From assembly GCA_013334225.1 (NCBI GenBank), contig JAAXXY010000015.1, forward strand, positions 1 through 64,000: a DNA stretch of 64,000 nt, given 5' to 3'. Source of the DNA: Chlorobiaceae bacterium. Its GTDB lineage: Bacteria > Bacteroidota > Chlorobiia > Chlorobiales > Chlorobiaceae. The notes under the pieces are model-generated. The model had not been told where the DNA came from and did no database searches. It was given only the letters and a program-made list of their open reading frames with translations. Below, one piece after another: positions 912 to 5,971 of the stretch. Each line of letters starts with the position of its first letter. Position 1 is the stretch's first letter. Made by a program: the position numbers and the translations under genes.

Positions 912-1823
912 TCAGATTCCGAGACCGTCGGTGAAACTGCTCTCGATCGCTTTCTGCTGCAGCATCCTCGAATTTGAAGGGACACTTCGTGTAATCCAGA
1001 CGCTGCCTCCGATAACGGAATTTTTTCCGATAGTGATTCTTCCCAGGATATTGGCGTTCGAGTAGATCACCACATTGTCCTCGATGATCGGGTGGCGAGG
1101 TATGTTTTTTGCCGGGTTACCGTCCTTGTCGATCTCGAATTTTTTTGCTCCGAGCGTGACTCCCTGGTAGATACGCACATTGTTTCCGATGATGCATGTT
1201 TCGCCGATCACGACGCCGGTACCGTGATCGATGCAGAAATATTCTCCGATGCTCGCTCCGGGATGGATATCGATGCCGGTTTCGGAATGGGACATTTCAC
1301 TGATGATCCTCGGTATGAGCGGAACTCCGAGCTTTAAAAGGGAATGTGCCGCACGATGGTTGATCATCGCCCTGATGGACGGGTAGCAGAAGACGATCTC
1401 GCCATGGCTTTTGGCTGCGGGATCGCCGTTGAAGATGGCTTCGACATCGGTCAGCAGGATTCTTCTCAAATCCGGCAGGGTTTCGATGAAACGGCGGGTG
1501 GTTTCTTCCGCGCTTTCATGCAATTTGCCGTTTCCGTTTTCAGCCGAGTTGAGATGAAGGACGCTTTGTATCTGTTCGACGAGGATCCCGTAGAGTTTTT
1601 CCACCCTCACTCCCAGAAAATAGGGCAGGGATGAATGGGCTGAAACGGGTTCACCGAAATATCCCGGAAAGATGATGGAGCGGAGTATATCCACGGCTTC
1701 CCTTAGCCTTTTGATTGACGGGAGCCGGTTTTCCTCGTGAAAAAGAAGCTGATTTTCATCATTATCGATGCTTGACAAAAGCCTAATGGTCTCCTCTATA
1801 AAGCTTTCGCTTTTCGTTTCCAT
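912..1823 (-). CDS. epsC: Serine O-acetyltransferase, EpsC/SrpH type
   Basis: Transfers an acetyl group from acetyl-CoA to L-serine, giving the O-acetylserine used by CysK. The N-terminal half is helical; the C-terminal half is a left-handed beta-helix of hexapeptide repeats (GIDIHPGASIGEYFCIDHGTG, then GVVIGETCIIGNNV) with the catalytic His/Asp pairs of the SAT family (HPGA and DHGTG). An in-frame ATG lies 26 codons upstream, but the ATG at 1823 has an AGGAG eight bases ahead, so it is preferred; the protein is then 303 residues. It lies between cysK and the encapsulin gene. The EpsC/SrpH form, rather than classical CysE, is the one often found beside family 2 encapsulins. Confidence 0.9.
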   Translation of the reverse strand: METKSESFIEETIRLLSSIDNDENQLLFHEENRLPSIKRLREAVDILRSIIFPGYFGEPVSAHSSLPYFLGVRVEKLYGILVEQIQSVLHLNSAENGNGKLHESAEETTRRFIETLPDLRRILLTDVEAIFNGDPAAKSHGEIVFCYPSIRAMINHRAAHSLLKLGVPLIPRIISEMSHSETGIDIHPGASIGEYFCIDHGTGVVIGETCIIGNNVRIYQGVTLGAKKFEIDKDGNPAKNIPRHPIIEDNVVIYSNANILGRITIGKNSVIGGSVWITRSVPSNSRMLQQKAIESSFTDGLGI

Positions 1824-1917
1824 GATTGGTACTCCTGTATGACGGGATTTCTGGTCGATGACGGGTTGTCTGCATGCAGCAGGGCGGGCCTTACGGCCCA
1901 TGCCCCGGCACGTATGT

Positions 1918-2871
1918 TCAGATGTTGACCTGATCCGGTTCGAACTGGTAGAGGAGGGTTGAAAGGTACCTTTCTCCGGTATCGGGAAGAATCACGACGA
2001 TTCTTTTACCTCTGTTTTCTTCACGCAGAGCGAGCTGCAGTGCAGCGTAAGCGGCGGCACCTGAAGAGATGCCGATGATGAGCCCCTCGGTGCGGGCCAG
2101 CTGCCTTCCGGTCTGCAGGGCATCCTCGTTTTTCACGGTGATGATTTCATCGATGACCTCCTTGTTCAGGATATCGGGAACGAACCCTGCGCCGATACCC
2201 TGGATTTTATGAGGACCAGGTTTGCCGCCTGAAAGGACGGGAGAGTCTGCAGGTTCCACGGCGACGATCTTTACACCGGGCTTGCGTGCTTTCAATACTT
2301 CGCCTACACCGGTTATCGTGCCGCCGGTACCTACACCGCTCACGAAAATATCGACTTCGCCGTCCGTGTCGTTCCAGATCTCTTCTGCGGTTGTCCTGCG
2401 GTGGATTTCCGGATTTGCAAGATTTCTGAACTGCTGCGGGACGAAAGAACCGGGATAGGTGCTATGCAGTTCGTCAGCCTTCCTGATGGCTCCACCCATG
2501 CCTTCAGGACCTGGTGTGAGCACCAGCTCGGCTCCAAGGGCTTTGAGGAGGTTGCGGCGCTCGATGCTCATGGTCTCGGGCATGGTGAGGATAAGGCGGT
2601 AACCCTTCGCCGCTGCGATGAATGCCAGGGCGATTCCTGTATTGCCGCTTGTGGGCTCGATGATGACGGTATCCTTGTTGAGAAGACCTTTCTTTTCGGC
2701 ATCCTCGATCATCGAGTAACCGATACGGTCCTTGACACTTCCGCCGGGGTTGAAGTATTCGAGTTTCGCGGTAATTTTTCCGAGTGCATTGTGCTCCCGG
2801 TTGAAGTTTTCAAGTTCGAGAAGGGGGGTATTCCCGATAAGGTCGGTGAGTTTCCTTGCGATGCGTGCCAT
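1918..2871 (-). CDS. cysK: Cysteine synthase A (O-acetylserine sulfhydrylase)
   Basis: PLP enzyme that makes cysteine from O-acetylserine and sulfide in the cytoplasm; 317 residues, normal family length. The Schiff-base lysine lies in PGGSVKDR near residue 46, and the substrate-binding loop is the TSGNTG motif near residue 75. The glycine-rich GTGGT phosphate-binding loop and the C-terminal SSGAAAYAA segment are also present. The C-terminus ends in Ile (QVNI), the residue type that lets CysK dock into serine acetyltransferase active sites, which fits the neighbouring epsC. About 100 bp separate it from the response-regulator gene upstream; a 9-bp inverted repeat sits in that gap. Confidence 0.95.
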
Positions 2872-2956: not shown

Positions 2957-2988
2957 ATACCATATTTGCGGTATGTCATATATGGTAT
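2957..2988. repeat. 9-bp inverted repeat between response regulator and cysK
   Basis: Arms ATACCATAT (2957-2965) and ATATGGTAT (2980-2988) are perfect complements separated by 14 bases. The right arm covers the last codons of the response-regulator gene, and cysK starts about 85 bp further on. No T-run follows, so it is more likely an operator or processing hairpin than a terminator. This is the only sizeable gap inside the downstream half of the operon, so a second promoter here is possible. Confidence 0.45.
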
Positions 2989-3629
2989 TCGATATTGTCG
3001 ATCACTCCCGCCTTTATGGCATACATCAGCAGTTCCGAACTGCTCGATACGCCGAGTTTCCGGAAAATGTTCTTCCGGTGGGTCATCACCGTATGGAAGC
3101 TGATATACTTTTTCGCGGCGATTTCCTTGGTCGACAATCCCGCCGCTATCATACGGACGATTTCTATTTCCGACGAGGTCAGGATGGATGCGTCTTCAAG
3201 TGGCCCTTCCTTCTGCAACAGTATGTCGAGTACATCACCGGAATAGTATTTTTTCCCTTTCAGGGCCGAATCGATGGCATGAAACAGTTCATCGCGGTCA
3301 TCGGTTTTCAGTACGATGTTTCTGATCCCGTTGTCGTTCAGCTCCTTTATTTTGGGCAGCGTGATCGAGTTGCAGAGAATGACGGTTCCCATACCCGGTT
3401 GCTGTTTCAACAATGTTCCGAGCTCTTCGATGGAACCGTAATCAAACTGCTCATGATCGGTTATGAGCAGCGATGCGCTCTCTTTCTGCAGATGCTGCAG
3501 CAGGCCGGATTTTGTCGTGATGGTCCGGTAGTTCGGATAGATAGGGGAGAGCAGAGCGTGAAGAGCGGTATTGGTGAGAAACTGGGTATCGGCCACCACT
3601 ACCGATATATCCCGCAGGGTTTTGCTCAT
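2976..3629 (-). CDS. LuxR/NarL-type response regulator, degenerate receiver
   Basis: Predicted DNA-binding regulator of 217 residues. Residues 1-125 have the receiver fold (VVVADTQ at strand 1, LLITDHE at strand 3, a lysine in IVLKTDD at strand 5). The usual acidic pair at strand 1 is reduced to a single Asp, so phosphorylation by a normal kinase is uncertain. Residues about 145-210 are a LuxR-type helix-turn-helix (LTSSEIEIVRMIAAGLSTKEIA, then HTVMTHRKNIFRKLGV). It starts two bases after the HPr-like gene stops, so translation is probably coupled. No kinase gene is adjacent. Its place inside a cysteine/homocysteine operon suggests a local regulator of sulfur metabolism, but the target is unknown. 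Confidence 0.85.
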   Translation of the reverse strand: MSKTLRDISVVVADTQFLTNTALHALLSPIYPNYRTITTKSGLLQHLQKESASLLITDHEQFDYGSIEELGTLLKQQPGMGTVILCNSITLPKIKELNDNGIRNIVLKTDDRDELFHAIDSALKGKKYYSGDVLDILLQKEGPLEDASILTSSEIEIVRMIAAGLSTKEIAAKKYISFHTVMTHRKNIFRKLGVSSSSELLMYAIKAGVIDNIEYHI

Positions 3630-3932: not shown

Positions 3933-5222
3933 TCAGACTCCCCTGAGCGCATCATCGAGCGCTTCGATCAAGTCATCGGGATGTTCGAGACCGATAGATA
4001 GGCGGATAAGGTCGGGTGAAAGACCGCCTTCGAGCTGCTGTTCCTTCGTCAACTGGCTGTGCGAGGTGCTTGCCGGGTGAAGGATGAGGCTTTTCGCATC
4101 ACCGACGTTTGCAAGGTGAGAGAAGAGCCTGATCGAATCGATGATTTTTACCGCTGCATCGTACCCGCCCTTCACTCCGAACACCACCATTCCGCCGAAG
4201 CCGTTTTTCAGGTCCCTTGATGCGGCGGGATAGGATGGATCGTTTTTAAGTCCCGGATAGCGAACCCATGAAACCTCCGAGTGTCCGGAGAGGTATTCTG
4301 CAACCTTGAGGGCATTTTCCGAATGGCGGGCCATTCTGACCGGAAGAGTTTCGATACCCTGAAGTAATATCCAGGAATTGTCCGGAGAGATGCAGGCACC
4401 GAGGTTCCTGAGCGGAACGGTACGCACGCGAAGCGCGAAGGCGATCGGTGCGAGCGGTTCCGGAAGGTCGATGCCCCAGCGGAGGCCGTGGTAGTTGCTG
4501 TCGGGTTCGGTGAAGAGGGGGTGTTTTCCTCCTTTCCAGTTGAAGCGACCTGCGTCGGTAATGATGCCGCCTATAGCGGAACCGTGTCCGCCGAGCCATT
4601 TAGTCAGAGAATTAACCACGATATCGGCGCCGAGATCAATGGTCCTGAGCAGGTAAGGTGTCGTGAAGGTGGCATCGACGATGAGGGGGAGCCCGTTACG
4701 GTGTGCGACATCGGCGATAGCCTTGACATCGACGTAATCGAGCACCGGGTTACCGATGGTTTCAATATAGAGTGCCCTCGTTTTTTCAGTTATGGCCTTT
4801 TCGAAGTTGGCCGGATCTTTCGGATCGACAAATTTTACGTTGATACCGAGTTTTGGAAGAATGGCATCGAACTGGGTGTAAGTGCCCCCGTAAAGGTTGT
4901 TTGCCGAAACGATTTCGTCGCCGGCTTCAGCAAGGGTGATGATGGTATAAAATATGGCTGCTGTCCCGGACGCGAGCGCGACAGATGCAGCACCGCCCTC
5001 GAGATGGGTGACCCGCTGCTCGAGGATATCGGTGGTGGGGTTCATCAGCCTCGTGTAAATATTGCCAAGCTCTTTCAGGGCAAACAGGTTGGCTGCATGT
5101 TCCGTACTTTTGAACAGGTAGGAACTGGTACGGTACACCGGCACTCCACGTGACTGGGTTGCATCGACAGGCTGGCCTGCATGAAGGGCATGTGTTTCAA
5201 AACGGTAATTTTGTGAACTCAT
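3933..5222 (-). CDS. metY: O-acetylhomoserine sulfhydrylase (aminocarboxypropyltransferase)
   Basis: PLP enzyme that makes homocysteine from O-acetylhomoserine and sulfide, feeding methionine synthesis. At 429 residues it has the length of the MetY branch of the Cys/Met metabolism PLP family. The PLP lysine is in the motif SLTKWLGGHG near residue 205, the YTRLMNPT motif lies near residue 56, and the YGGTY aromatic loop follows. The C-terminal HPASTSHSQL motif is typical. It is preceded by a tRNA-Cys-like element on the same strand and followed by the HPr-like gene at 34 bp. A good ribosome binding site (AGGAG) lies before the ATG. Confidence 0.94.
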   Translation of the reverse strand: MSSQNYRFETHALHAGQPVDATQSRGVPVYRTSSYLFKSTEHAANLFALKELGNIYTRLMNPTTDILEQRVTHLEGGAASVALASGTAAIFYTIITLAEAGDEIVSANNLYGGTYTQFDAILPKLGINVKFVDPKDPANFEKAITEKTRALYIETIGNPVLDYVDVKAIADVAHRNGLPLIVDATFTTPYLLRTIDLGADIVVNSLTKWLGGHGSAIGGIITDAGRFNWKGGKHPLFTEPDSNYHGLRWGIDLPEPLAPIAFALRVRTVPLRNLGACISPDNSWILLQGIETLPVRMARHSENALKVAEYLSGHSEVSWVRYPGLKNDPSYPAASRDLKNGFGGMVVFGVKGGYDAAVKIIDSIRLFSHLANVGDAKSLILHPASTSHSQLTKEQQLEGGLSPDLIRLSIGLEHPDDLIEALDDALRGV

Positions 5223-5281
5223 CCGGATCTCTCCTTTGTTTATTTTTAAAAAGTTATGTGCAAATACATTTCTTCAGCGGC

Positions 5282-5355
5282 GGCGACGGCAAGATTAGAA
5301 CTTGCGATGAAAAAGGTTTTGCAGACCCTGGTTTTAACCACTCACCCAAGTCGCC
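5282..5355 (-). tRNA. tRNA-Cys(GCA)-like element, structurally irregular
   Basis: Read on the minus strand the segment has the parts of a tRNA. The acceptor arms GGCGAC and GTCGCC pair. A D-loop contains GTGGTTAA. The anticodon stem AGGGT/ACCTT encloses the loop CTGCAAA with anticodon GCA (Cys), and the T-stem GCAAG/CTTGC encloses TTCTAAT. Departures from a normal tRNA-Cys are: the seventh acceptor pair is T-C, the D-stem has three pairs, the variable region is about seven bases, T-loop position 57 is T instead of a purine, the discriminator would be G instead of U, and CCA is not encoded. It is either a minor or degenerate tRNA-Cys or a tRNA-mimic in the metY leader. It sits between the DUF4395 gene and metY on their strand. 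Confidence 0.6.
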
Positions 5356-5402: not shown

Positions 5403-5876
5403 TCAACAATCGGTTACATTATCTCCCCGTTTTCCAAAGAATCTGTAACGCTGAATGTTGAACTGGTAAAAAAGGAAACAGCCAAGGCAGAACCCGCCGA
5501 GAGCGACAGCTGTAGCGACACCGAGCATGCCGGAAAAGATCCAGCCGGCAAGGGGTACGTGGAGAATAAAAGCTATCTGTGCAAAACCGAGCAGCAGGGT
5601 GGCGATAGTGTTGTTGAATCGGATCAGACGGGGATCATCGGTCGGAGCGTTTCTGTTCTTTTCTGCAAAAAGCCGTGATCCGACAAAGAAGAAGAGGCTT
5701 CCTTTCTTTCCGAAAAGAACGGCTCCGAGCGTTATGAAAAACAGTACGGTCGTGAAGAGGGGCTGCTGGAATACAATTCCTGCAATGACCCCTGCCAGAA
5801 GTACTGACTGGTTCAATTTGACGATCGGCTGCGGTATTCCGCCTGGGATAGCCGGTGATGAAGCTGGTGATGCCAT
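5403..5876 (-). CDS. DUF4395 family membrane protein
   Basis: Hydrophobic protein of 157 residues with about four membrane segments (roughly 24-45, 45-65, 85-107 and 110-137) and a polar middle (AEKNRNAPTDDPRLIRFNNT) that matches the conserved centre of the DUF4395 family, whose biochemical role is not known. It is the first full gene downstream of a strong terminator and a Cys-rich short frame, and its stop lies 48 bp before the tRNA-Cys-like element and about 180 bp before metY. The position suggests a sulfur-related membrane function, for example transport, but nothing in the sequence proves that. Confidence 0.7.
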   Translation of the reverse strand: MASPASSPAIPGGIPQPIVKLNQSVLLAGVIAGIVFQQPLFTTVLFFITLGAVLFGKKGSLFFFVGSRLFAEKNRNAPTDDPRLIRFNNTIATLLLGFAQIAFILHVPLAGWIFSGMLGVATAVALGGFCLGCFLFYQFNIQRYRFFGKRGDNVTDC

Positions 5877-5912
5877 ATTATATTGTTGTTTTTTTGGTTT
5901 TTTAAAAACAAA

Positions 5913-5943
5913 AAAGCCGGTTCTGACACGCAGGACCGGCTTT
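5913..5943 (-). terminator. Intrinsic terminator or attenuator ahead of the DUF4395-metY operon
   Basis: A 13-bp stem (AAAGCCGGT..CTG / CAG..ACCGGCTTT, one wobble pair) with a five-base loop is followed on the minus strand by a T-rich tract. It lies about 40 bp upstream of the DUF4395 start codon, so it would stop transcription entering the sulfur operon. The only thing it could regulate or insulate is this operon. Two small mutually exclusive hairpins (5947-5963 and 5959-5972) precede it, right after the Cys-rich short frame. Confidence 0.75.
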
Positions 5944-5971
5944 GAATGAACGTAAGGCGTTCAGCAATGAA

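Follow-up and report, generated by a model that had tools for sequence, protein, structure and literature searches.

Genes for tRNAs can be co-transcribed with genes for proteins, as in the tufB operon of Escherichia coli. The E. coli thrS leader contains a tRNA-like operator, and T-box leaders of cysteine genes tie tRNA-Cys to those genes. According to the accessible text of PMC8762117, SepRS/SepCysS operons include tRNA-Cys, and that of PMC9976931 places cysteine identity in E. coli and yeast mainly in U73 and the anticodon GCA.

Here, we describe a tRNA-Cys(GCA)-like gene that lies within a cysteine/methionine operon of a Chlorobiaceae bacterium. The window is the whole stretch of DNA that was analysed, 64,000 nt of contig JAAXXY010000015.1 (assembly GCA_013334225.1). 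We find that the element is a real gene of a conserved, sulfur-linked family, and that an ordinary tRNA gene alone does not explain it. A search of titles and abstracts, with most subscription journals outside its reach, found no paper describing these elements.

The element and its operon in the window

Open reading frames and Pfam searches give the gene order DUF4395, element, metY, LuxR-type regulator, cysK and cysE (Table 1). A first-pass annotation, made from the sequence letters, had placed a cloverleaf with anticodon GCA on the operon strand in the gap between DUF4395 and metY. This is borne out by ARAGORN, which calls a tRNA-Cys (gca) at window 5279-5355 on the minus strand, and by an Rfam scan of the window, which matches RF00005 at 5281-5355 on the same strand; the original coordinates were correct to 1-3 nt. 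The covariance score that the annotation had asked for is 40.8 bits (E 3.3e-5) against a gathering score of 29, and the element thus has both a GCA anticodon and an above-cut-off tRNA score. RF00005 is the sole Rfam family matched in the window, where no T-box family match was found. Among the 45 tRNA matches in its own genome, the element scores lowest. Single-strand folding, which did not return the cloverleaf as the top structure for any of four tRNAs tried, an ordinary one included, is not used as evidence.

Table 1. Coordinates of features in the window. Classes A and B are defined in the text; nt numbers follow tRNA numbering.
Feature	Position	Strand	Basis and remarks
cysE-like gene (hexapeptide transferase)	912..1901	-	Pfam PF00132
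cysK-like gene	1918..2871	-	ORF, named from sequence reading; neighbour in related loci
Palindrome TACC-N8-GGTA	2958..2973		Before cysK; same kind precedes class A/B elements and sir
LuxR-type regulator gene of operon	2976..3629	-	Pfam PF00196
metY-like Cys/Met PLP enzyme gene	3933..5222	-	Pfam PF01053; start codon ~58 nt past element
Class A tRNA-Cys(GCA)-like gene	5281..5355	-	nt 1-73; C74 = window 5280; ARAGORN, Rfam, conserved family
Discriminator G73	5281	-	Class trait, 25/25 class A; U73 in ordinary tRNA-Cys
T-loop nt 57 = U	5297	-	G in other 24 class A copies
Anticodon GCA in invariant hairpin GGTCTGCAAAACC	5320..5322	-	Alignment; 25/25 class A copies (hairpin text required by the search pattern, yet not by the BLAST search)
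nt 7 = U	5349	-	G in other 24 class A copies; last acceptor pair broken
DUF4395 gene, upstream of element	5403..5876	-	Pfam PF14340

The oddities reported by the annotation in the discriminator, T-loop and variable region are all real. They comprise G73, the T-loop UUCUAAU where UUCGAAU is the expected form, and an abnormal anticodon-stem/variable region, although this copy can itself pair A27-U43 and G28-U42. It also has an acceptor mismatch, U7 x C66. The main tRNA-Cys, which the annotation had proposed to look for, is present elsewhere in the same assembly as two ordinary genes, both with U73 and an encoded CCA; the assembly is flagged as 6.9% contaminated, and the two genes may be one per strain. 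We read 20 tRNA genes of this genome, with ordinary tRNA-Cys among them: all encode C74 and only 4 the full CCA. The 3' end of the window element conforms to this host rule.

A GC-rich hairpin followed by a T-run was seen by eye at window ~5905-5945 on the minus strand, ending some tens of bases short of the DUF4395 start. It may terminate the upstream gene or serve as an attenuator.

Two classes of copies in Chlorobiaceae

We searched 61 genomes of the family with the window element (BLAST) and 394 genomes of the phylum with a strict pattern. The pattern finds the tRNA-Cys-like family in 54 of the 394, all of them Chlorobiaceae and from two genera; carriers include Chlorobium ferrooxidans DSM 13031 and many Chlorobium, Chlorobaculum and Chlorobiaceae metagenome-assembled genomes (MAGs). 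Because parts of the D and anticodon arms are prescribed by the pattern, their invariance is partly built in. BLAST, which is free of the pattern, identified the same class A copies in its 61 genomes, along with others whose anticodon arm is broken. Both searches therefore answer the annotation's question about conservation in relatives in the affirmative. Ordinary tRNA-Cys was detected in 81 of 86 family genomes, and thus the tRNA-Cys-like elements are additional.

Pattern matches in Alistipes, Rikenellaceae and Mycoplasmatota (8 of 70 stretches) were removed before counting; ARAGORN calls seven of these tRNA-Cys, one of them in a cluster of 15 tRNA genes, and one is cut by a contig end. One Mycoplasmatota MAG contig (L098) has 15 tRNA genes within 3.7 kb. 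We also considered a phage or plasmid origin of the family and rejected it, as the only matches are weak and partial ones to two phage records and one plasmid record.

The 66 distinct copies that could be parsed fall into two classes, here labelled A (25 copies) and B (41 copies). Class B carries U73 in 40 of 41 copies, and its pairs 27-43 and 28-42 are standard in all 41, completing a five-pair anticodon stem. The stretch from position 41 to the T-stem is a near-constant 7 nt, and two-sided changes occur at pair 6-67 (C-G/U-A) and at the outer T-stem pair (G-C/A-U). Intact copies score 56-62 bits with the Rfam tRNA model. Having both U73 and GCA, class B possesses the features of a chargeable tRNA-Cys. 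Tandem class B copies without a GCA anticodon occur at two loci (L048 6487 and L050 2879), with pair 7-66 altered on both sides relative to intact copies.

Class A has G73-C74 in all 25 copies, that of the window included, and so departs throughout from the U73 of a functional tRNA-Cys. The acceptor and T-stems are the same in nearly all copies, with a C3 x A70 mismatch in G009 (L034) alone. The 42-48 region, in contrast, has 23 different sequences among the 25 copies, with 7-11 nt between C41 and the T-stem; ordinary tRNA-Cys has just two versions of this region among 13 distinct sequences read. Standard pairing is seen at 27-43 in 17 of the 25 copies and at 28-42 in 20, a frequency no better than that of shuffled letters, and class A as a class thus lacks the five-pair anticodon stem that class B has. 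C74 is encoded in every copy of either class (25/25 and 41/41), and the elements, like the majority of tRNA genes in the window's genome, lack an encoded full CCA. In two class A relics, one before sir (L184, in G022) and one before metY (L185, in G046), the acceptor stem is kept and the anticodon arm has been removed, by two separate deletions.

Because U73 and the two upper anticodon-stem pairs have been lost, class A probably accepts cysteine poorly and represents a specialised relative of tRNA-Cys. It is possible that the two classes share one function that tolerates poor charging, or that their functions are split. More speculatively, class A might tie up CysRS, or some other protein that binds tRNA-Cys, and deliver no cysteine. 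A second CysRS as a dedicated partner was rejected, as each of the 31 genomes searched (31/31) has one match over the cut-off.

Sulfur loci and flanking signals

Neighbourhoods were tallied for 67 placed copies, 26 of class A and 41 of class B. Class A stands directly upstream of metY in 12 of 26 cases and of sir in another 12, always on the same strand; the remainder are one copy with DUF4395 upstream in a slice that ends there and one free-standing copy. For 35 of the 41 class B copies, the gene upstream is porin-like and lies on the same strand (“porin-like” is a reading of the sequence, with no Pfam match). For 15 of the 41, sir follows at a distance of up to 3.5 kb; many slices end before sir would be visible. 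The name sir denotes a nitrite/sulfite reductase-type gene (Pfam NIR_SIR), which is followed by cysH, cysD and cysN. In two genomes (G035 and G274), class A lies between porin and sir, where other genomes have class B, and thus A and B occupy equivalent places.

This association with sir also emerges independently of the pattern: of 16 sir slices given to ARAGORN, 10 contain a tRNA, in each case a tRNA-Cys. Across 86 genomes, element and sir are both present in 43, the element only in 11, sir only in 7 and neither in 25 (Fisher P = 2.4e-7, a value that ignores shared ancestry). The table was left as computed, with contig ends affecting sir in G034 (cut), class B in G311 (cut), and G005 and G315, whose contigs end too near sir. 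The link to sulfur metabolism drawn by the annotation is therefore strongly supported, the family being found at several sulfur loci across Chlorobiaceae.

Not every such locus has the element. It is absent from 19 of 19 readable DUF4395-metY junctions among 20 genomes that were picked for lacking it, and from the region upstream of sir in G021 and G047. This indicates that its function is dispensable and that metY does not depend on it. Conversely, intact copies occur without a sulfur operon downstream. No sir match was obtained in two genomes, G008 and G016, whose class A copy is not followed by any sulfur gene; in G016, a metY lies ~1.4 kb away on the other strand. Their class A copies differ at 0 of 76 positions, as against 22 of 165 in the adjoining spacer and 110 of 1126 aligned bases in the neighbouring gene. 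The loss of sir in these genomes may be recent or separate. Class B can likewise be found at the porin gene with sir 17-29 kb off on the same contig (G039 and G027) or on another contig (G037 and G051).

In C. ferrooxidans DSM 13031 (L095), the first base of the class B tRNA-Cys lies ~440 nt before the sir reading frame. The accessible text of PMC5498476 states that photoferrotrophic Chlorobi assimilate sulfate and that tRNAs are generally lacking near their cassettes. The class B gene near sir conflicts with this latter remark, as worded in that text.

A palindrome, TACC-N8-GGTA, recurs at these loci. In the second genus (g2), all 10 class A elements that precede sir have it 96-137 nt upstream. 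It also lies at -98 relative to the free-standing class A copies of G008/G016, and at -111 to -113 relative to the class B copies of G001 and of the genome of the window (G000). Several class B loci with a spacer have it between the element and sir. A search of the 1.5 kb upstream of metY-type elements, the window included (where it does not precede DUF4395), did not find it, nor was it in the corresponding place at L104, a first-genus class A locus before sir. The palindrome may be a mark, or candidate operator, of a sulfur regulon.

Two related hairpins, CATCCGGG...CCCGGATG with a T-run behind, flank class B at L036, L040, L048, L053 and other loci. One, X, with two inner stems, closes the porin-like gene and abuts or nearly abuts the class B tRNA; the other, Y, with one inner stem, comes after the tRNA. 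A T-run lies within 12 nt before nt 1 in 35 of 41 class B copies, which leaves little room for a promoter in between. At eight scanned loci out of 14, no Rfam family besides tRNA reached its gathering score in the element flanks, and inspection by eye found no consistent match between X and the anticodon loop. The idea that X and Y are dispersed repeats was rejected, as a strict pattern for these hairpins occurs in 17 of 86 genomes and those hits that could be checked against the listed elements map to the class B/porin locus.

Proposed role and comparison with known systems

We favour, with modest confidence, the reading that the element is an extra, divergent Chlorobiaceae relative of tRNA-Cys that is sulfur-regulated, excised from its transcript and active in trans. 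A sulfur-regulated promoter would drive the operon, and the element would be co-transcribed with the sulfur-acquisition genes. RNase P, whose release of the element is plausible, would cut the tRNA-shaped part at its 5' end, and the 3' end would be trimmed and CCA-tailed like those of the host's other CCA-less tRNA genes. The released RNA would then act in trans when sulfate must be assimilated.

The annotation had also suggested a tRNA mimic that couples the operon to tRNA-Cys charging or to processing by RNase P. In its purely cis form, CysRS binding or an RNase P cut in the mRNA leader would adjust how well the sulfur genes are translated, or how stable their mRNA is, to the level of cysteine charging. 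The placement is suggestive: in most loci class A, like class B in G000 and G001, lies ~39-72 nt before the metY or sir start codon, and 24 of 26 class A loci are tied to a downstream gene start in this way. G73 would be immaterial to a mimic, and the two relics have retained the acceptor stem without the anticodon arm. This tie is broken, however, by the free-standing copies and by class B at the porin 3' end. The spacing also varies, with no conserved leader around the element, and the Shine-Dalgarno-like region is present in element-free relatives as well. Furthermore, nt 73-74 are conserved as in ordinary tRNA genes. Intact free-standing copies, porin-side class B copies far from sir and the tRNA-type C74 end together favour a trans RNA over a cis leader, and we regard the cis form as improbable. 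Far less credible still is chance placement or the footprint of a mobile element using a tRNA as its integration site. A reading frame near the G008 free-standing copy looks transposase-like, but same-strand siting at several sulfur loci in two genera, with conserved tRNA boundaries and variable flanks, argues strongly against this.

The family could instead supply an ordinary additional tRNA-Cys that raises cysteine decoding capacity during sulfur assimilation. Class B fits such a role well, in its U73, GCA, fully paired anticodon stem, near-constant variable region and high tRNA scores. Nevertheless, we consider this reading unlikely for the family, given the invariant G73 and unpaired upper anticodon stem of class A and the ordinary tRNA-Cys that these genomes already have; more tRNA-Cys under cysteine scarcity would also bring no clear benefit. 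A more serious possibility, although we lean against it, is that the window copy itself is a pseudogene in decay, whatever the role of its family. The annotation's “decayed copy” does not hold for the family, whose tRNA features are conserved in relatives, but decay may be beginning in this copy. Its G7U and G57U changes are unique among the 25 class A copies, at otherwise invariant positions, and suggest that it may be degenerating or losing function. Its lowest tRNA score in the genome, the relics and losses in relatives, and the tandem class B copies without an anticodon point the same way. Against this, between the window element and that of G001 there are substitutions at only 3 of 75 positions and a single gap, as compared with differences of 10-25% in the flanks and metY (metY, 77/600). 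U7 and U57 may also stem from an assembly error or a strain mixture.

Within the favoured reading of a sulfur-regulated RNA acting in trans, a narrower version appears doubtful, if worth stating. Class A would be an unchargeable, sulfur-regulated decoy of CysRS or of a tRNA-Cys-modifying enzyme, apportioning scarce cysteine to protein synthesis or to other uses, and class B would be a sulfur-regulated real tRNA-Cys. If the favoured reading is true, a regulon for the synthesis of an amino acid has come to include the cognate tRNA, or a version of that tRNA that cannot be charged. Some of the hosts must assimilate sulfate in sulfide-poor, iron-rich water. An ordinary tRNA-Cys, a class B and a class A gene, one each in the same cell, provide a testable system.

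The element shares features with several known systems and is distinct from each. Similar to T-box leaders of cysteine genes, it links tRNA-Cys to such genes, but it is the tRNA shape itself rather than a tRNA sensor. As in the thrS leader, a tRNA-shaped RNA precedes the start of a metabolically related gene. Here, however, it is a complete tRNA with tRNA-type ends that also occurs free-standing and at a 3' end, and the linked genes are biosynthetic and do not encode a synthetase. As in the SepRS/SepCysS operons, to the extent that the accessible text of PMC8762117 describes them, a tRNA-Cys gene lies among genes for cysteine-related enzymes; the enzymes are different ones, and a normal CysRS is present in 31/31 genomes searched here. 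Relative to bacterial tRNA-Cys (GCA) isoacceptors, the element has the same cloverleaf, GCA, C3-G70, G13 x A22, elbow motifs and encoded C74, while class A differs in G73, its open upper anticodon stem, the 7-11 nt from C41 to the T-stem and its placement in sulfur operons. Finally, as in tufB-type operons, a tRNA lies within an mRNA-producing unit, from which it is presumably freed by RNase P. Unlike in those operons, the operon makes the amino acid to which the tRNA corresponds, and the arrangement is found again at different sulfur loci.
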